Shown here one piece after another: positions 5,961 through 50,929 of a stretch of DNA of 64,000 nucleotides. The stretch is taken from the NCBI GenBank assembly GCA_958295955.1, contig OY282420.1:3238435-3302434 (forward strand). Direction: 5' to 3'. The stretch's first letter is position 1. Each line of letters begins with the position of its first letter. Under the pieces are notes generated by a model. It was given only the letters and a program-made list of their open reading frames with translations. It was not told the origin of the DNA and did no database searches. Origin of the DNA: an uncultured Bryobacterales bacterium (GTDB lineage: Bacteria; Acidobacteriota; Terriglobia; Bryobacterales; UBA6623). A program made the position numbers and the translations under genes.

Positions 5961-7934
5961 TCAATTGACCCAGATGGGGCTGGAGATCGCTTTCTCGCCA
6001 TCGTCCTGAACGAGGTCCACGTAGTAGTAGGCGGAGCCGCCGTTTGCGCCGCGGTCGACGAATTCGAAATCCGTCCGCTCGGCCGGCGGATCGACGGCGT
6101 AAACGATGCCGCCGTTTTTAACGACGCGGACCGTCTTCAGACCGGCGGCGCCCACGGCGGACACTTGCAACGAGATGTCGCCGCCGGCGCGAATTTCGCT
6201 GCCCATCGGCTCGCCGTCCACTGCGAAGCGCAGGACGATGCGCTCGCCCGTCGTGGCGTAAGTGCGGCGGTGGTAGATGCCTTGGAAGACGCCTTCGCGG
6301 TCCAGATCGTCAGCGAATACGGCCATTAGAGCCGTACCCCGCTCGGCCGGGCTGTAGCGGGAGTACAACGGCCCGCCGGCGCCGCGGGCGACGGCTTCGC
6401 GGCGGATTCCGTAACCCGCGTTCCCGGAATGATTGTCGGTCGAAGCGACGACTCCGACGCGGCGGCCTTTTTCGAGGAACGTCGCCACCCAATCTTCCGA
6501 GCGCCGGTGGTCGGAGAAGATTTCGATCGCCCGCTGCAGCTTGTCGTTGTGCCAGGTCGGGTTCCCCGGCCTGCCGCCGAAGTGGGGAATGGTCAGCAGG
6601 TTCTCGCCGCGAAAGCTCTCCGCCAACATGCGGAACAGATCTTCCACGTGGCCCGCCTGCCGCTGCGGGCCGTGATAGTTGCGGACGTTCTCGTACCGAT
6701 AGCGCAGGTAGCTGCGGATCAGCGGCATATCGTCGCCGGTGGTATAGACGTTGTGATCGCCGCCCACTTCGCTGGGGCCGCTCCACTCGTAGCCCAAGAA
6801 CGTCACGTACTCGCCGGGCGCGTTGAACTCTTTGGCGGCGCGCTTGATGTCCTCCCACATTTCCGCCGTGGTGATGAAGGCGTGGTCGCTGACCGCGCAG
6901 AAATCGAGCGCGGCGTAGCGCTTGCCGAAATCGTAAAGCTCGGCGGGCGTGCCGCGTCCGTCCGAGTACTTGGTGTGCGTGTGCAAGTCGCCCCAGACGA
7001 TCGTCCGCCGGGGAAGCCGCTCATGGACCACGATCGGATTGCTCGCGGCTTCGCGCCCGCTGCGGTCCCGCGCGACGAGGCGATAGACGCCGGGCCGGTC
7101 AAAGCTGACCGGCCGAAAGCGGTGGGCGCCGCGGTCCCCCTCAGCGTAAGCGTAGGGCGGCGGCAGTTTTCCCCGCCCGGCGGGGTCTTCGAGCGCGACC
7201 GTGCCGCGGTAGGCCGCCGCCGGATTGCCCAGGCCGTCCTCCGCCCAAACGTTGACCCAGCGGGACTTGCCGACTTCCCAGTCGGTGGGCGCGGTCACGA
7301 TCAACTCTTGCGCTCCGCCCGCCAGTACCGCCAGCCGCGGGTTGCGCGCAAGCGGCAGGAATTCGCCTTTGCCGAAGGCGTCCACCCACACCTTCTGCTC
7401 GAAGGCGGACTCGTCCATCGGCTGCATCAGGACGCCGGGCGAGCCCGCGGAGCGGTCGCCGAAAACCAACTCGATGAAATCTCCCTCGACAAGACTTTCG
7501 CCGGCAAGCGTGAATTGATTGAGGCGCTGCCAGGGGAAGTACGCCTCCGCGCCGCCTGCGTACTCCCACTGCAACGGCGCGCCGGTGGAAGTCCGATAGG
7601 TGAGAAAGTTCGGGGCGCGCGGGTCGCGGGTTTGCAGCATTGTCCCGCCCCACATGTCCCACTGAAAATCGTGCTGAGTCGAGAGCCGCAGCCCGCCGCC
7701 GGCGGCCATGCCGGCCTTGCCCACGGTGAAGCGCAGCTTGATTTCCGCGTATCTCCCGGCGACAACCTCGGTGACGCCGGCGAACTCGGCGGCGCCGAGG
7801 CCGAGCTCTTCGGCCTGCGCGGCGGCTTCTTTCTCGGTCGCATACCGCGCCGGACTCTGGTAGGAGGATTGGCCGCTCAACGGGCAAGCGAAGATGCAGA
7901 GCGCGAAGAACGCAGCGGGATTCACGCGCCTCAT
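5961..7934 (-). CDS. DUF3604 protein with PHP phosphoesterase domain
   Basis: A 657-residue exported protein with an N-terminal signal peptide (MRRVNPAAFFALCIFACPLSG). The second half starts with VWGDLHTHTKYSDG, the H-X-H metal-binding motif of the PHP fold, followed by CAVSDHAFITT and later STDNHSGNAG, both with further metal-binding His/Asp residues. The N-terminal half is beta-rich. This arrangement is that of the DUF3604 family, common in Acidobacteria, Planctomycetes and marine bacteria; members are presumed metal-dependent phosphoesterases with undefined substrate. It is divergent from the antiporter gene at 8015. Confidence 0.85.
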   Translation of the reverse strand: MRRVNPAAFFALCIFACPLSGQSSYQSPARYATEKEAAAQAEELGLGAAEFAGVTEVVAGRYAEIKLRFTVGKAGMAAGGGLRLSTQHDFQWDMWGGTMLQTRDPRAPNFLTYRTSTGAPLQWEYAGGAEAYFPWQRLNQFTLAGESLVEGDFIELVFGDRSAGSPGVLMQPMDESAFEQKVWVDAFGKGEFLPLARNPRLAVLAGGAQELIVTAPTDWEVGKSRWVNVWAEDGLGNPAAAYRGTVALEDPAGRGKLPPPYAYAEGDRGAHRFRPVSFDRPGVYRLVARDRSGREAASNPIVVHERLPRRTIVWGDLHTHTKYSDGRGTPAELYDFGKRYAALDFCAVSDHAFITTAEMWEDIKRAAKEFNAPGEYVTFLGYEWSGPSEVGGDHNVYTTGDDMPLIRSYLRYRYENVRNYHGPQRQAGHVEDLFRMLAESFRGENLLTIPHFGGRPGNPTWHNDKLQRAIEIFSDHRRSEDWVATFLEKGRRVGVVASTDNHSGNAGYGIRREAVARGAGGPLYSRYSPAERGTALMAVFADDLDREGVFQGIYHRRTYATTGERIVLRFAVDGEPMGSEIRAGGDISLQVSAVGAAGLKTVRVVKNGGIVYAVDPPAERTDFEFVDRGANGGSAYYYVDLVQDDGEKAISSPIWVN

Positions 7935-41955: not shown

Positions 41956-42954
41956 ATGCTGCAATTCGGACTCTTTGGGGCCGGCCGCATCGGCCGCATG
42001 CATGCGCGCAATCTCGCCGCCAATCCGCGGGTCCGGCTGGTTTCGATCTACGATGTCGCCGCGGCCGCGGCGAGCGCAGCGGCTGCTGAATGCGCAGCGG
42101 CGGCAGTCGATTCCGCGCAGGCGATCCTCGGCGACTCGTCCATCGACGCGGTTTTTATCGCTTCGGCGACCGACACCCACTGCGATCTGATCGAGCAGTC
42201 GGTCCGCGCCGGCAAGGCGGTTCTTTGCGAAAAGCCGATCCACCTCGACCTCAACCGCGTCAACGCCTGCCGCGAGGCGGTTGCCGGCAGCGGCGTCCCG
42301 ATTCAGATCGGTTTCAACCGCCGTTTCGACCCCAGCCATCTCGCCCTGCAGCGGGCGGTTCGCGCCGGCAAGATCGGGACGCTGGAAAAATTGATTCTCA
42401 CCAGCCGCGACCCGGCGCCGCCGGGGCTCGATTATCTCAGCGTGTCGGGCGGTTTGTTCCGTGACATGGCGATCCACGATTTCGATCTCGCGAGATTTGT
42501 CTTCGGCGAAGAGTTCGTCGAGGTTGCCGCCATGGGCAGCGTGCTCGTGGATGCGCGGATCGGCGCCATCGGCGACGTCGATACGGCCATGATCACCATG
42601 AAAACGGCGTCCGGCGCCCTGTGCTGCATCAACTGCTCGCGCCGTTGCGCGTACGGTTACGACCAGCGTGTCGAGGCGTTCGGCGCGCAGGGCATGCTCG
42701 TCTCGACAAACCCGACGCCGGCGCATGTCGAGCGCTGGAGCGGGTCCGCAACCGCGGCGAGACCGCCGTTGCACCACTTCTTCATCGAGCGCTATGCCGA
42801 CTCTTACGTTGCCGAGGTCGATGCGTTCGTCGAGGCCGTCGAGCAGGGCCGACAGCCCTCGCCGGCGTTCGAAGACGGCCGCCGGGCGCTCATCCTGGCC
42901 GAAGCCGCCGGCGAATCGGCGAAAACGGGCCGCGCGGTTTCCGTCAGCGGTTAG
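41956..42954 (+). CDS. iolG: Inositol 2-dehydrogenase-like oxidoreductase
   Basis: A 332-residue Gfo/Idh/MocA enzyme. The N-terminus FGLFGAGRIGRMHARNL binds NAD, and CEKPIHLDLNRV carries the EKP motif, with GFNRRFDPSH and the catalytic block FRDMAIHDFDLARF (Asp and His). This pattern is that of myo-inositol 2-dehydrogenase, which oxidises inositol to scyllo-inosose. Specificity in this superfamily is hard to assign. Its end overlaps the end of the DsbD-alpha-like gene by 4 bp (convergent). Confidence 0.75.
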   Translation: MLQFGLFGAGRIGRMHARNLAANPRVRLVSIYDVAAAAASAAAAECAAAAVDSAQAILGDSSIDAVFIASATDTHCDLIEQSVRAGKAVLCEKPIHLDLNRVNACREAVAGSGVPIQIGFNRRFDPSHLALQRAVRAGKIGTLEKLILTSRDPAPPGLDYLSVSGGLFRDMAIHDFDLARFVFGEEFVEVAAMGSVLVDARIGAIGDVDTAMITMKTASGALCCINCSRRCAYGYDQRVEAFGAQGMLVSTNPTPAHVERWSGSATAARPPLHHFFIERYADSYVAEVDAFVEAVEQGRQPSPAFEDGRRALILAEAAGESAKTGRAVSVSG

Positions 42955-43499
42955 TCCGCCCGCACCTTCGTCAGCGTCCGGATATCCAACTCGGTCTTCG
43001 CGCCCGCCGGCGGGAGCGGCACTGCCAACCGGGTCTCGACCGCCCGGCAACTCACGCTGTCGCAGATTTGCGCATGGATCGCCACGACCGCCGGACCCGC
43101 TCCGGAGCGCTTGACCCGGGCGGCCAGCAGGGCCGGGCCGTCAAAGCCCCAGGTGAACCAGCGCAGCTTCGGCTGCGAAAAGTCCTTGGGTTCCGACTGA
43201 TACCAGGGTCCCGTCACTTGCAGGCCCTCCGAGACGGTCACTTGCGTATTTTCTTCGACCCCCAGCGACATCTTGCCCGCCAGCGCCTCTTTGGCGCGTT
43301 GCTTGTTGTCCATCGCATAGGTGTGCCAACCGTCGGCGGTCTTGACCTGAACGACCAAGTAGTCTCCGTCGAGCTTCGCGCGGTACGAAGCCAGCGGCCG
43401 GCCGTTGCGCGAGGCGTGCGCCTCGGGCGTCCATTCGCCGCAGAAAACCGGACCGGCCAGCAAGGCCGAGACCGCCAGGATGCGCAGTGAAAACGTCAT
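42951..43499 (-). CDS. DsbD N-terminal-domain-like exported protein
   Basis: A 182-residue protein with a signal peptide (LRILAVSALLAGPVFCG). The body has DGYLVVQ-type beta strands, VKTADGWHTYAM, and a Cys pair in AQICDSVSCRAVE, the position of the redox-active pair of the DsbD alpha domain, which passes electrons to periplasmic thioredoxin-like partners. The membrane and C-terminal domains of DsbD are absent. Its ATG overlaps the stop of the selenoprotein gene (43496-43499), so the two are translationally coupled and probably a redox pair. Confidence 0.7.
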   Translation of the reverse strand: MTFSLRILAVSALLAGPVFCGEWTPEAHASRNGRPLASYRAKLDGDYLVVQVKTADGWHTYAMDNKQRAKEALAGKMSLGVEENTQVTVSEGLQVTGPWYQSEPKDFSQPKLRWFTWGFDGPALLAARVKRSGAGPAVVAIHAQICDSVSCRAVETRLAVPLPPAGAKTELDIRTLTKVRAD

Positions 43500-44740
43500 T
43501 TCCGAAAGCTCATTCTATCCGTTTTGAGCGCGGTCTCCATCCGCTCGCCGTTGCGCACGATCTGCAGGGTATAGCGGTCGCCGGCCTGCTTGCGGAGCTT
43601 GAGGAAAAGCTCCGCTGTGTTCGCAATTTCGTCCCGTGTCTCGCCGTCCACCGCATACACGATGTCGCCGGCGGCGAGCTCGTGGTTGCCGAGCAATTCC
43701 GCGACCCGGTCGATGTAGGTCACGCGGCTGGCGAACCCGTCGGGATCGAGGCCGAGGTTTCTTTTTTCCGCGGCGGTCAGAGGCTCCGAGTCGAAGTAAA
43801 CGCGCGGGTCGACGCTCCAGTTGCGATAGGAGATATCGGTCAGCCACCAGAAATCGGGCAGGGCGATATCGAGTTCCACGCTCTTCCCGCCGCGGCTCGC
43901 CTGGAGTTGAATTTTCTGCGCGCGGCGATCCACGCGGTCGTACTCCCACTGCAGGTCGCCGAACGTCCGGATGCGCTTGCCGTTGAAGTGGGTGATCGTA
44001 TCGCCGGCCTGCATTCCCGCTGCGGCCGCCGCCTTCGTTGCTTGCGCCACGCGAAGACCCTTGGGGATATCGAGGCCGATGCCGATCGTGCGGATGTCGG
44101 GCGAGCGGAACATCTGCGAAAGCTTGTCGAGATTGCCGTCGATCTCGCGCTGCACGTTCTCGAGATCGCCGATCAGATGGCACTCGACGCAGCGCCCCGC
44201 GCCGATCGTCCGTTTATAGAGTTCTGGAATGTCCCGCGGATACCGCGCCGGCGGCCGAGTCTTGCGGGCGATCTTCCCGGCCCGGTACGAGCGGTGCTGC
44301 TCCAGCCCTTGCTCCAGCGCCAGCTCGAGGCTCTCCAGATCGAGGTACGTCGTCGGCGAGCGCTGGTCCCTGCCGCCGTAGCGCATGTAGATGTGCTCGT
44401 CTGCGTTGAGAATGAAGAAGTACAGCGTGTTATAGCGGTCGTAATCGAACAGACCGATATCGATCCCGTTCATCCGTACGATGCGGGCGGTGACGTATTG
44501 CTTGAGCAAATCGCCGCGTTTCGTTCCTGCCTCGGTCAGCACAACCTGTGCGTCGAATTCACGTCCGGCGCGTCAAGGCGCGCAGCGGAACTCGAGAAAG
44601 ATGGGCTTCCCGGTCCGCCGTGCCTCCTCCAGGGCTTCTGCGTACGACGTGATCCAACCGACCGCCTCTTCAGCCGTCGCCGGCGTTGAGAGCAGCGAGA
44701 TTGCGAGCGAGACTTGTAGTGCAAGGAGTCCGGTTCGCAT
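43496..44740 (-). CDS. Predicted selenoprotein: thioredoxin-like CXXU, CXXCH and two PDZ-like domains
   Basis: One 414-residue protein if the TGA at 44575-44573 is read as selenocysteine. Residues 1-23 are a signal peptide. Residues 24-66 are a thioredoxin-like start (ALEEARRTGKPIFLEF) with C53-A-P-U56, the CXXC active-site position. Residues 184-188 are CVECH, a c-type haem motif. Two PDZ-like domains follow (about 230-300, with GMQAGDTITHFNGKRI, and 325-405, with LAAGDIVYAVDGET). The TGA frame is unchanged on both sides; without recoding, translation would restart at a GTG at 44542 and lose the signal and active site. It lies 28 bp after selA and overlaps the DsbD-alpha-like gene. Confidence 0.85.
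44539..44575 (-). promoter_or_regulatory. Selenocysteine UGA with bacterial SECIS-like hairpin
   Basis: On the minus strand UGA (44575-44573) is followed by 21 nt and then GCACA-GGU-UGUGC (44551-44539), a perfect 5-bp stem with a three-base loop starting with G. UGA to the apical loop is 26 nt, within the range I know for bacterial SECIS elements (about 16-37 nt), and the GGU loop matches the SelB-contacting loop of the E. coli fdhF element. Confidence 0.75.
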
Positions 44741-44768: not shown

Positions 44769-46205
44769 TCAGCAGGGCGAAGGTAACTCCGGTTCGCCCC
44801 GGCTCGCCGGGCGCAGGGCGGCTTGCAGCGCCCGGAGCAGGTCGGCCTCTTCCGCTGCGGCAACGGTGCGCAGGTCGATCAGCAGACAGCCCCGCTCGAT
44901 CCGGGCGATCACCGGCGGATCGTCGGCCCGCAGCCGGCGCTCGATTCGCTGCGCCGCCGCGCCGCCGCCCGGCTCGACCGCGATCACCGGCGAAGGCAGT
45001 GAGCGGAGCGGGGTCGAGCCGCCGCCGAGCAGCGATTCGCCCTCGCGGACGGCGATGCCGGGACAGTCCAGTTTTTTGACGAAAAGAGCGGCCCGCTCGC
45101 GCAGCGCGGCGGCCGGCGCGCGCATCATGCTTAAAGCAGGGATGCCTTCCAGATTGCCCCGAATATACTCGCGCAGGGTGGCCCCCAGCGCGGCGTAGGT
45201 CAACTTATCGACGCGCAAGGCGCGGAACAGGGGGTTCCGCCGAATGCGCTGCACGAGTTCCGGCTTGCCGGCGATAATGCCGGCTTGCGGACCGCCGAGC
45301 AGCTTGTCGCCGGAAAACGTCACCACGTCCACGCCGGCTTCGAGGCCGGCGCCGACCGGCGCCTCGTCGTCGATGCCGATTGCGCGCAGGTCGTGCAGGC
45401 AGCCGCTGCCGAGATCTTCGACGAGGGGCAGGGAACTTTCGCGCGCGAGCGCGACCAGCTCGGCCAGGCTCGGGCGGCCGGTGAACCCGATCTGCCGAAA
45501 ATTGCTGGGGTGAACCCGCATGAGCATGCGGGTCCGTTCGCCGACCGCGCCGCGGTAATCTTCGATCCGTGTCCGATTCGTGGTTCCGACTTCGCGCAAT
45601 GCCGCGCCCGAGCGTTCGAGGATTTGGGGGATGCGGAATCCGTCGCCGATCTCGATCAACTCGCCGCGGGAGACGATCGTTTCACCGTCCCGCGACAGTT
45701 CGTTCAGCACCAGCAGAATCGCCGCGGCATTGTTATTGACGACAATGGCCGGCGCGCCCAGAAGTTGTTCGAGCAGCTCGCCGGCATGGACGTCGCGCTT
45801 GCCGCGCCCGCCCGCGGCCGAATCGTATTCCAGGTTGGAATATCCGCCCGCCGTTTCGCGGATCGCCTCGATAGCTGAGGCGGCGAGCGGCGCGCGCCCC
45901 AGATTCGTGTGCAAGATCACCCCGGAAGCGTTAATGACCCGCCGCAGCGAAGGCCGCGTCAGTCGGGTCAGCTTGGCCGTGACGCGGGCCTTGACCGCGG
46001 CGAGGCCGTCGAACCCGCCGGGCTGCTCGCCCGCGAGAATGGCGGCGCGTATCTCCGCCAGCGCATCCCGCGCCAGGGCCGTAACGCGTTCCCGCGGCAG
46101 CGCTTGCAGCCACTCCGCGCCCGTGTCGGATTGGAGCAGCGCGTCCACCGACGGCAGGCCGCGCAGCAGGATTTCTCTGTCGCTCATGGGCTCCGCGCCG
46201 CTCAT
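44769..46205 (-). CDS. selA: L-seryl-tRNA(Sec) selenium transferase
   Basis: PLP enzyme that converts seryl-tRNA(Sec) to selenocysteyl-tRNA(Sec) with selenophosphate. The 478-residue protein has VINASGVILHTNLGRAPL, YSNLEYDSAAGGRGKRD, VNNNAAAILLVLNEL, VHPSNFRQIGF and the PLP-lysine block FSGDKLLGGPQAGII. Its ATG overlaps the stop of the upstream TPR gene (46202-46205); ATG 46187 is an alternative. The next gene downstream, 28 bp on, is the predicted selenoprotein, so the maker and user of selenocysteine are co-transcribed. selB and tRNA-Sec are not in the window. Confidence 0.95.
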   Translation of the reverse strand: MSGAEPMSDREILLRGLPSVDALLQSDTGAEWLQALPRERVTALARDALAEIRAAILAGEQPGGFDGLAAVKARVTAKLTRLTRPSLRRVINASGVILHTNLGRAPLAASAIEAIRETAGGYSNLEYDSAAGGRGKRDVHAGELLEQLLGAPAIVVNNNAAAILLVLNELSRDGETIVSRGELIEIGDGFRIPQILERSGAALREVGTTNRTRIEDYRGAVGERTRMLMRVHPSNFRQIGFTGRPSLAELVALARESSLPLVEDLGSGCLHDLRAIGIDDEAPVGAGLEAGVDVVTFSGDKLLGGPQAGIIAGKPELVQRIRRNPLFRALRVDKLTYAALGATLREYIRGNLEGIPALSMMRAPAAALRERAALFVKKLDCPGIAVREGESLLGGGSTPLRSLPSPVIAVEPGGGAAAQRIERRLRADDPPVIARIERGCLLIDLRTVAAAEEADLLRALQAALRPASRGEPELPSPC

Positions 46206-48661: not shown

Positions 48662-50929
48662 ATGATCCCGCAATCTACGCCTGTCGCTAAAGATCTGGTG
48701 CTTCTGGGCGGCGGGCATGCGCACGTCATCGTGCTCAAGCGCCTGGGGATGAAGCCGATTCCCGGAGTGCGCATAACCCTCGTCTGCCGCGACATGCATA
48801 CGCCCTATTCGGGCATGCTCCCCGGACTGATCGCCGGCCATTACACTTACGACGAGGCGCACATCGATCTCCGCCCCCTGGCCAATTTCGCCGGCGCTCG
48901 ATTGTTCCACGCCGGCGCAACCGCGCTCGACCCCGAGAAACGCCTTGTCCATTTTGCGGACCGCCCCCCGCTCGGCTACGACCTGCTGTCGCTCGACATC
49001 GGTTCGACGCCGGGATTCGACAACGTTCCCGGAGCGCGCGAGTTCGCGGTTCCGGTGAAGCCCATCGGCAATTTTCTGCCGCGTTGGGAAGCGTTCGTCG
49101 GCCGGGTCTTGAGCGCCGGCGAACGCCCGCGCATCGCCGTGGTCGGAGCGGGCGCCGGCGGAGTCGAGTTGACGCTCGCCATCCAGCACCGCCTGCGCCG
49201 GCTGCTCGCCGCTGCCGGACGCACGTTCCGCGAACCCGAGATGCACCTCTTCAGCCGGACCGCCGACATCCTGCCCACGCACAACGCCCGCGTCCGCCGC
49301 AAGCTCCACCGGCTGCTGCTGGAGCGCGGCGTAAACGTGCATTGCGGCGCCCGCGTGTCGGCAGTGTCGCCGAACGGCCTATGCACGGATTCCGGCTTAC
49401 GGGAAAGCTTCCACGAAATCGTTTGGGTTACCGGCGCGGCGGCGCCCCCGTGGTTGGCCGCATCCGGCTTGGCGGCGGATGCGGACGGCTTCGCCGCGGT
49501 GGACGATTGCTTGCGGTCGCTTTCCCACGGAGATACCGTCTTCGCCGCCGGCGACATCGCCGCCGTCGTCAACCACGAACGCGAAAAGGCCGGGGTTTTC
49601 GCGGTGCGCCAGGGGCCTCCGCTGGAACGGAACCTGCGCCGCGTCCTCCACGGCGCCGCGCCGCGGCCGTTCCGCCCGCAGAAGAAGTTCCTCAGCCTGA
49701 TTAGTACCGGAGACAAGCGCGCCGTCGGTTCCCGAGGCGGGTGGTCGGTCGCGGGCAAGTGGGTTTGGACTTGGAAGGATTGGATCGACCGCCGCTTCAT
49801 GGCCAAGTTCAGCGATCTGCCGGCAATGGACGAAGCCGGCGCCGCGCTTGCGTCCGAGGCGGCGGCCGGCCAAGAATCGCCGCGCAAGCGTTCGGCCTTT
49901 GCGATGCGCTGCAAGGGTTGCGGGTCGAAGCTCGGCGCGAGCGTGCTCGACCGCGTGCTCGCGGACATCGACCCGTTGCCGCGCCCCGACGTTCCGAGCG
50001 GAATGGATGCGCGGGACGACGCCGCCCTCGTGGAAGTCCCTCCCGGCAAGGTGCAGGTGCAGTCCGTCGACTTTTTCCCCGCCATCGTCGACGACCCGTT
50101 CATCTTCGGGCGCATTGCCGCCAATCACGCGCTCGGCGACATTTTCGCCATGGGCGCCGAACCGCAATCCGCGTTGGCGCTGGCCGGCGTGCCCTTCGGG
50201 CCGCCGGAGAAGACCGAGGACTTGCTCCGCCAACTCCTGCTGGGGGCGAACCGAACCTTGCGCGAAGCCGGCGCGGCGCTGGCCGGCGGACATTCCAGCG
50301 AAGCGCCCGAGCTCGCGCTCGGTTTTGCGATGAGCGGCTTGGCCGAGCGCGGGCGGATCTTGTCGAAAGGCGGCCTGCGCGCGGGCGATGCGCTGATCCT
50401 GACCAAGCCCATCGGCACGGGGGCTCTGTTCGCGGCCGACGCCCGGCGGCGGGCAAAAGGCCGCTGGGTCGAGGCCGCCCTGACAGCCATGCTGCAATCG
50501 GCAGGCGCCGCCGCCGAAGAATTCCGCCGGCGCGGGGCGCGCGCCTGCACGGATGTCACCGGCTTCGGACTCCTCGGCCACCTCTTGGAAATGCTGCGCG
50601 CGTCGGAAAAGTCCGCCGAGCTCGTTTTGCCTGACGTACCGATCCTCGACGGCGCGGCCGCCTGCGTCGCAGAGGGGATTTTCAGCTCGCTCCACCCGGA
50701 GAATCTCAAATTCGGGCAAGAGGCGGCGAATGCGGAGCGGTTCGCGGGCGATCCGGGATATTTGTTGCTGTTCGACCCGCAAACGGCGGGCGGTCTGCTG
50801 GCCGGCGTGCCCCAAAACGAGGCTCAAGAGTGCGTTGAAGAACTGCGGCGCCGGGGGTATGCGCAAGCGGCGATCGTCGGCCGCGTGACGGACGGCGGGT
50901 CCGACGACGGCCTCGTAACCTTGCGCTGA
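48662..50929 (+). CDS. selD: Selenide, water dikinase fused to a NADH-dehydrogenase-like oxidoreductase
   Basis: A 755-residue fusion. Residues 1-about 400 are an FAD/NAD-dependent oxidoreductase (LVLLGGGHAHVIVLKRLG, VVGAGAGGVELTLAI, VFAAGDIAAVVNHE). Residues about 415-755 are SelD, with MRCKGCGSKLGASVLDRVL carrying the active-site Cys, DARDDAALVEVPPG, VDFFPAIVDDPFIFGRIAANHALGDIFAMGA, and CTDVTGFGLLGH. It makes selenophosphate from selenide and ATP. The catalytic residue is Cys, not selenocysteine. The fusion is known in other bacteria; the oxidoreductase may supply reduced selenium. Divergent from the FecR gene with a 119-bp gap. Confidence 0.93.
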   Translation: MIPQSTPVAKDLVLLGGGHAHVIVLKRLGMKPIPGVRITLVCRDMHTPYSGMLPGLIAGHYTYDEAHIDLRPLANFAGARLFHAGATALDPEKRLVHFADRPPLGYDLLSLDIGSTPGFDNVPGAREFAVPVKPIGNFLPRWEAFVGRVLSAGERPRIAVVGAGAGGVELTLAIQHRLRRLLAAAGRTFREPEMHLFSRTADILPTHNARVRRKLHRLLLERGVNVHCGARVSAVSPNGLCTDSGLRESFHEIVWVTGAAAPPWLAASGLAADADGFAAVDDCLRSLSHGDTVFAAGDIAAVVNHEREKAGVFAVRQGPPLERNLRRVLHGAAPRPFRPQKKFLSLISTGDKRAVGSRGGWSVAGKWVWTWKDWIDRRFMAKFSDLPAMDEAGAALASEAAAGQESPRKRSAFAMRCKGCGSKLGASVLDRVLADIDPLPRPDVPSGMDARDDAALVEVPPGKVQVQSVDFFPAIVDDPFIFGRIAANHALGDIFAMGAEPQSALALAGVPFGPPEKTEDLLRQLLLGANRTLREAGAALAGGHSSEAPELALGFAMSGLAERGRILSKGGLRAGDALILTKPIGTGALFAADARRRAKGRWVEAALTAMLQSAGAAAEEFRRRGARACTDVTGFGLLGHLLEMLRASEKSAELVLPDVPILDGAAACVAEGIFSSLHPENLKFGQEAANAERFAGDPGYLLLFDPQTAGGLLAGVPQNEAQECVEELRRRGYAQAAIVGRVTDGGSDDGLVTLR

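Follow-up and report, generated by a model that had tools for sequence, protein, structure and literature searches.

The family NF041199, named "Trx7/PDZ domain-containing (seleno)protein" (trx7_PDZ_seleno), is given as CxxU in the accessible text of PMC13188914, and a Thioredoxin_7 "PDZ domain-containing protein" with CxxU is listed in that of PMC9312934, where it is attributed to a 2008 ocean metagenome survey (PMC2398784). The corresponding text of the survey names a "putative secreted serine protease MucD" with CxxU; going by these descriptions, the "MucD" entry looks like the Thioredoxin_7/PDZ protein of PMC9312934. Extra conserved Cys residues, their function unclear, are described for a MucD-PDZ protein in part of PMC9402790, and no function is stated for the NF041199 family in the excerpts of the literature searched. 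Two further systems invite comparison, DsbD with its alpha, beta and gamma parts, and TsoB, a rhodanese/DsbD fusion-like selenoprotein (NF045694).

Here we describe a locus in a window of 64,000 nucleotides from an uncultured Bryobacterales bacterium (contig OY282420.1, positions 3,238,435 to 3,302,434). It encodes a protein that resembles NF041199 in its whole-length match and its CxxU, and in which nothing was seen to set it apart from the family. The excerpts available from the NF041199 literature are without the partner gene, the haem reading of the CXXCH motif and the register of the selenocysteine (Sec) that are discussed below.

Gene organization and family membership

The selenoprotein gene, its domains and the neighbouring genes for Sec synthesis are arranged as follows.

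43496–44740, minus strand: Trx7/CXXCH/PDZ-PDZ selenoprotein gene (NF041199), 414 aa, Sec at codon 56
44573–44575, minus strand: in-frame TGA, predicted selenocysteine codon (Sec56); TGA in relatives, TGC in homolog L055
44669–44740, minus strand: putative signal peptide, residues 1–24, read by eye from the sequence
44465–44656, minus strand: Thioredoxin_7 (DsbD-gamma-like) domain, residues 29–92, with C53 and Sec56 (Pfam and alignments)
43859–44089, minus strand: PDZ domain 1, about residues 218–294 (Pfam, structure comparison)
43511–43810, minus strand: PDZ domain 2, about residues 311–410 (Pfam, structure comparison)
44769–46205, minus strand: selA, L-seryl-tRNA(Sec) selenium transferase (TIGR00474, 518 bits, cut-off 267.9)
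48662–50929, plus strand: selD fused to an N-terminal flavoprotein domain (TIGR00476, 292.6 bits, cut-off 125; TIGR03169, 486.2 bits, cut-off 310)

The region 43496–44740 is a single minus-strand frame of 414 codons, interrupted only by the TGA at codon 56 (44575–44573) and closed by its own TGA stop at 43498–43496. Translation table 11 splits it into a 96-aa ORF ending at the internal TGA, with a mechanical TTG start inside selA (the likely start is the ATG at 44740), and a 348-aa ORF at 43496–44542. The initial annotation had proposed that these two ORFs, which look like a broken gene, are one frame, and translation of the region bears this out. It had also placed selA 28 bp upstream and selD divergent nearby, as the positions of the two genes confirm; between them lie two ORFs on the minus strand (496 and 265 aa). 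We note that the SelD fusion falls below the cut-off of the look-alike TIGR04369 (451.5 versus 700 bits).

The translated protein matches NF041199 over model positions 2–389 of 390, with 423.6 bits against a cut-off of 300, and the CxxU/CxxC motif that the family carries in its Thioredoxin_7 domain is present as C53-A-P-U56. In the Pfam scan it matches Thioredoxin_7 (28.4 bits, cut-off 27) and, in two stretches, PDZ_2, and residues 1–24 are, judged from their sequence, a probable signal peptide. This full-length match and the published CxxU entries together make the window protein a member of a catalogued family. The suggestion that the domain combination lies outside the standard selenoprotein families, made where its cataloguing could not be checked, has therefore to be corrected, with the family catalogued as NF041199 and given as CxxU in the accessible text of PMC13188914 and PMC9312934; a new selenoprotein family is ruled out by the NF041199 score.

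The relationship to HtrA/DegP/MucD serine proteases is confined to the PDZ part. A Pfam scan at E 0.1 found no trypsin-type protease domain, so that a protease of this type is rejected, and HtrA-family NCBIfam matches cover only the PDZ part and score far below cut-off. The CxxU is shared with the "MucD" selenoprotein as described in the available text of PMC2398784, but the window protein lacks the protease domain and only its PDZ pair is HtrA/MucD-like. The likeness to TsoB is a weak match of residues 2–65 (17.8 bits), far below the cut-off of 805 bits, and no rhodanese match was reported. AlphaFold modelled the selenoprotein poorly (mean pLDDT 65.6, falling below 50 at the active site and at the CXXCH). 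Comparison of this model with known structures dealt mostly with its PDZ part (residues 190–390 of the model), and searching the PDB by sequence with the thioredoxin domain returned nothing meaningful.

Decoding of the in-frame TGA

A phylum-wide search with the whole NF041199 model gave PDZ matches in all 396 genomes, two of them over cut-off, and because PDZ matches swamped this search, later ones used residues 25–227. Within the window's order, 63 of 257 genomes match the Trx-CXXCH part (E 1e-10), and a TGA lies within the match in all 63, its codon position having been checked in the 30 best, which were taken as loci. Two other orders of the phylum yielded matches in 2 of 72 and 1 of 162 genomes, every one with TGA and one of the three with a TAG as well. 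A scan of genome contigs found five relatives, with TGA in three Bryobacterales and one Puniceicoccaceae and TGC in one Lentisphaerales (L055). At the same codon, TGA is present in 38 of 39 loci and TGC in one, some of these loci being the same genome taken twice. Cys in place of Sec in a homolog had been named in the initial annotation as something to look for, and L055 supplies it.

The machinery for Sec insertion is complete in the window's genome, where selA and selD are joined by selB (376.1 bits over its cut-off) and a tRNA-Sec gene, selC (75.9 bits, anticodon tca), both of which had been singled out earlier as genes to seek. Across the order, tRNA-Sec is found in 192 of 257 genomes against 63 with the Trx7/PDZ selenoprotein, so other selenoproteins probably sustain the Sec trait in much of the order. 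Among the 63 gene-bearing genomes selC was found in 60, an overlap counted by eye from two genome lists, and not in G457, G485 and G546.

The TGA might instead be a true stop or a sequencing error, and the locus a pseudogene or two genes, as the two table-11 ORFs and the in-frame TAG of two relatives (genomes G310 and G491) could suggest. Against this stand the TGA in 63 of 63 matching order genomes, a dN that stays well below dS both before and after it (8 pairs, with one upstream dS saturated and upstream stretches of 25–38 codons) and the complete Sec machinery, which make such an account extremely improbable. Pseudogene, frameshift and sequencing error are ruled out by the first two of these, and an error at 44573–44575, which had earlier been held open, is excluded because all 63 genomes carry the TGA. 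Decoding of the UGA at 44573–44575 as Sec is thus well supported by these comparisons, and with it the core of the earlier proposal, a selenoprotein that combines a CXXU, a CXXCH and PDZ domains and whose sequence is conserved downstream of the TGA.

The TAG codons are observations of their own. In locus L024 (genome G310) the TAG is in frame just after CIECHMIGDY, in addition to the Sec TGA, and may reflect an error, a pseudogene or something else; in genome G491 one TAG falls in the match besides the TGA.

Downstream of the UGA lies a candidate signal for Sec insertion.

44539–44551, minus strand: bSECIS-like hairpin GCAC-AGGUU-GUGC (GCACAGGUUGUGC), with weaker outer pairs reaching 44535–44554

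This 13-nt hairpin starts 21 nt after the UGA. The available text of PMC13188914 gives, as bSECIS rules beside one on free energy, a loop of 3–9 nt, a stem of 4–16 bp, a G in the first two loop positions and a distance of 16–37 nt from the UGA; in a comparison that covered the loop, stem, G and spacing rules, the hairpin agrees with them, having a 4-bp GCAC/GUGC stem, the loop AGGUU and a UGA-to-loop spacing of 25 nt. Among the 39 loci, some of which are one genome taken twice, GCAC-AGGUU-GUGC occurs in 29, the loop AGGUG in six and other single forms in four, one of these being the Cys homolog L055, where the stem is kept and the loop is AGUUG.

Synonymous sites are strongly conserved here. 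Over 116 conserved codons in 34 sequences the lowest codon entropies belong to Q65, V67, A64 and L68, which lie within the hairpin or next to it; codon 56 and D63 rank next. Q65 is CAG and V67 is GTG in 34 of 34 sequences, and A64 is GCA in 33 of 34, compared with a GCA share of Ala codons of 0.116 outside the hairpin stretch in these genes. Mean codon entropy is 0.17 for codons 63–68 versus 0.71 overall (Mann-Whitney p 2.8e-5, a value that is only indicative since the sequences share a tree). The region folds no better than shuffled sequences (z +1.06 for 46 nt, +0.93 for 43 nt and −0.25 for the 25-nt core), the hairpin is absent from the minimum-energy fold of longer stretches and present only in the centroid of one, and no two-sided compensatory changes were seen in 29 distinct Sec sequences, with the Cys locus L055 left out. 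In an Rfam search of the window only tRNA reached the gathering score. The hairpin is supported by synonymous-site conservation, without support from covariation or folding energy.

Active-site register and the CXXCH motif

Family-profile alignments that run gap-free through the active site were obtained with the DsbD-gamma, DsbH-type and TrxA domains encoded in this genome (hmmsearch, MAFFT) and, by hhalign, with DsbD. In them the first Cys of the motif (CTNC, CHWC or CGPC) is paired with Sec56 and the second with Gly59. BLASTP with DsbD and hhalign with the DsbH-type domain disagree, introducing a gap that places CXXU on CXXC, and hhalign of the family against TrxA gave no usable alignment. 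With the selenoprotein model poor over the active site, the register rests on weak sequence alignments, and because the hmmsearch scores are low (19.7, 10.3 and 1.7 bits) we rate it as probable rather than settled: Sec56 would occupy the attacking, first-Cys position, with Cys53 three residues upstream and Gly59 at the usual resolving position. The initial annotation had seated the TGA at the second Cys of a CXXC in a thioredoxin-like fold; the letters C-x-x-U stand, while most alignments assign the Sec to the first Cys.

Further along the chain are two candidate haem features.

44177–44191, minus strand: CVECH motif (C184, C187, H188), candidate c-type haem site, invariant in 35 of 35 distinct homologs
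44294–44296, minus strand: His149, candidate second haem ligand, the only other invariant His (35 of 35)

For residue counts the 39 loci reduce to 35 distinct proteins, with L053/L079, L054/L077, L057/L071 and L025/L090 identical; L024, which has a second in-frame stop, was counted as a 192-residue piece, the codon counts above having used the other 34. The Cys/Sec and His positions conserved in all 35 are C53, position 56, H149, C184, C187 and H188, in loci extracted with a pattern that called for C at −3 and G at +3 as well as a CXXCH further on; 39 of 39 passed it, and none was dropped on its account.

The invariant CXXCH suggests a c-type haem site, and the window's genome makes haem attachment possible, since the cytochrome c assembly family PF01578 has three matches in it above the cut-off. 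The selenoprotein could function chiefly as a redox sensor or electron carrier based on haem c; the CXXCH would then bind the haem, His149 or some other residue would be its second ligand, and the CXXU would undergo redox change by way of the haem. The structures most similar to the PDZ part include MamP, a PDZ protein with CXXCH haem domains; this agrees with such a role, as do the invariant C184, C187, H188 and H149 and the PF01578 matches. However, the Pfam scan at E 0.1 found no cytochrome domain in the selenoprotein, the CXXCH surroundings are modelled at pLDDT below 50, and the motif could serve as a simple thiol pair or bind a metal. We regard a mainly haem-based function as less likely than not.

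A DsbD-alpha-like partner and a possible thiol relay

The gene directly downstream overlaps that of the selenoprotein.

42951–43499, minus strand: partner gene for a stand-alone DsbD-alpha-like protein with C-x4-C, assigned from fold match and co-occurrence

The partner ATG and the selenoprotein stop share the sequence ATGA (43499–43496). The AlphaFold model of the partner has a pLDDT of 86.8, and in a fold search with it all 19 PDB matches at E ≤ 0.001 fall to the N-terminal domain of DsbD, by itself or within a complex, or to ScsB; a partner sequence profile run against the PDB found no DsbD and no real relative. PF11412 matches six of six aligned partner members, with the window partner just under cut-off (24.2 versus 25), and the C-x4-C pair is invariant in six of six; the alpha part of the DsbD of the same genome also has C-x4-C. 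The partner is accordingly modelled as an nDsbD fold with a putatively redox-active Cys pair.

Among the 257 genomes of the order, the partner (E 1e-8) turned up in 61 of the 63 selenoprotein-bearing ones and in none of the other 194; these genomes are related and not independent, each gene occurring in 18 of 84 genera. All 61 pairs lie on the same contig and strand, 55 as direct neighbours and six with about 0.4 to 2.7 kb more between them. The two genomes where the partner was not found, G495 and G512, have the selenoprotein gene, by its coordinates, so near a contig end that a partner would fall off. Around the selenoprotein a partner match is present in 37 of 39 loci, both misses coming from genome G206. 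A selA match is found in 12 of the 39, all from the window's own family and most loci reaching only about 1.5 kb to each side, so the selA linkage looks local and the DsbD-alpha linkage general. That the two genes occur nearly always together suggests that their products form one thiol electron-transfer pair; no report of such a pairing was found in the excerpts searched, all of them from open-access literature.

Read by eye, the DsbD-alpha domain ends an EF-hand-like protein in loci L055 and L056 and precedes EF-hand-like sequence in L024. EF-hand-like genes also flank the pair (L055, 1642–2961 and 4244–5080; L056, 1608–2963 and 4283–5134), and the fusion hints, from its sequence, at calcium control in the L055 and L056 lineages. 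In L056 a SelB-like C-terminal part was noticed by eye (6205–7242, minus strand), some 2 kb downstream of the gene for the selenoprotein.

Alternatively, the selenoprotein could be a peroxide-reducing or detoxifying enzyme, in which the Sec attacks and Cys53 resolves and which the DsbD-alpha-like protein recycles. The Sec at the attacking position, the unusual Cys three residues upstream and the Gly at the usual resolving place fit that scheme, and the available part of PMC9402790 describes a selenoprotein of peroxiredoxin-like type that is joined to a PF11412 domain. The selenoprotein has no peroxiredoxin or glutathione-peroxidase family match in NCBIfam or Pfam, however, and its PDZ domains suggest protein clients; we consider a peroxidase unlikely.

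The organization resembles that of DsbD in that a thioredoxin domain of gamma-like type is joined by an alpha-like protein, here from neighbouring genes, but without the membrane beta domain, with Sec for Cys, and with the CXXCH and PDZ domains added. The only DsbD_TM match in the genome is away from the window (C1:200532–201164), with none in the pair or the next gene, and a separate full-length DsbD is encoded elsewhere in the same genome (L094). A gamma-like and an alpha-like protein, encoded by overlapping genes and both lacking a membrane domain, suggest a relay, and our preferred reading, to which we give a probability of roughly 0.7, is that the Sec-decoded NF041199 protein and its DsbD-alpha-like partner form an envelope selenol/thiol relay with PDZ-held clients. 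Comparison and models support its Sec decoding, domain make-up, partner fold and gene linkage; export, joint translation, the path and direction of the electrons, the haem and the clients are what we infer.

On this reading Sec insertion at the UGA is directed by the hairpin, its loop 25 nt downstream, together with SelA, SelB, SelD and tRNA-Sec, a step that is well supported, and it gives a product with a DsbD-gamma-like thioredoxin domain, then the CXXCH segment and then two HtrA-type PDZ domains. Both proteins would be exported to the envelope, where the Sec site may swap electrons with the C-x4-C pair of the partner, as DsbD-gamma does with DsbD-alpha, while the PDZ tandem would hold client proteins. 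The CXXCH, perhaps with haem c, could be a second redox centre or a point of electron entry or exit, and the electrons may come from the full-length DsbD of the genome or from haem at the CXXCH. A narrower version is a self-contained two-protein "DsbD without a membrane domain", combining a Sec-containing gamma-like domain (Cys at −3, Sec attacking, Gly at the resolving position), a c-type haem on the same chain, an alpha-like shuttle, electron flow in the envelope between haem and protein thiols, and PDZ-bound clients; all of this together is improbable.

The family itself is already catalogued, and what is new here is its near-obligate partner and, probably, a shifted active site. If the proposed register is true, a literal "CxxU" can hide a Sec at the attacking, not the resolving, position of a thioredoxin fold, and the co-occurrence of 61 of 63 versus 0 of 194 gives a named selenoprotein family a likely redox partner.
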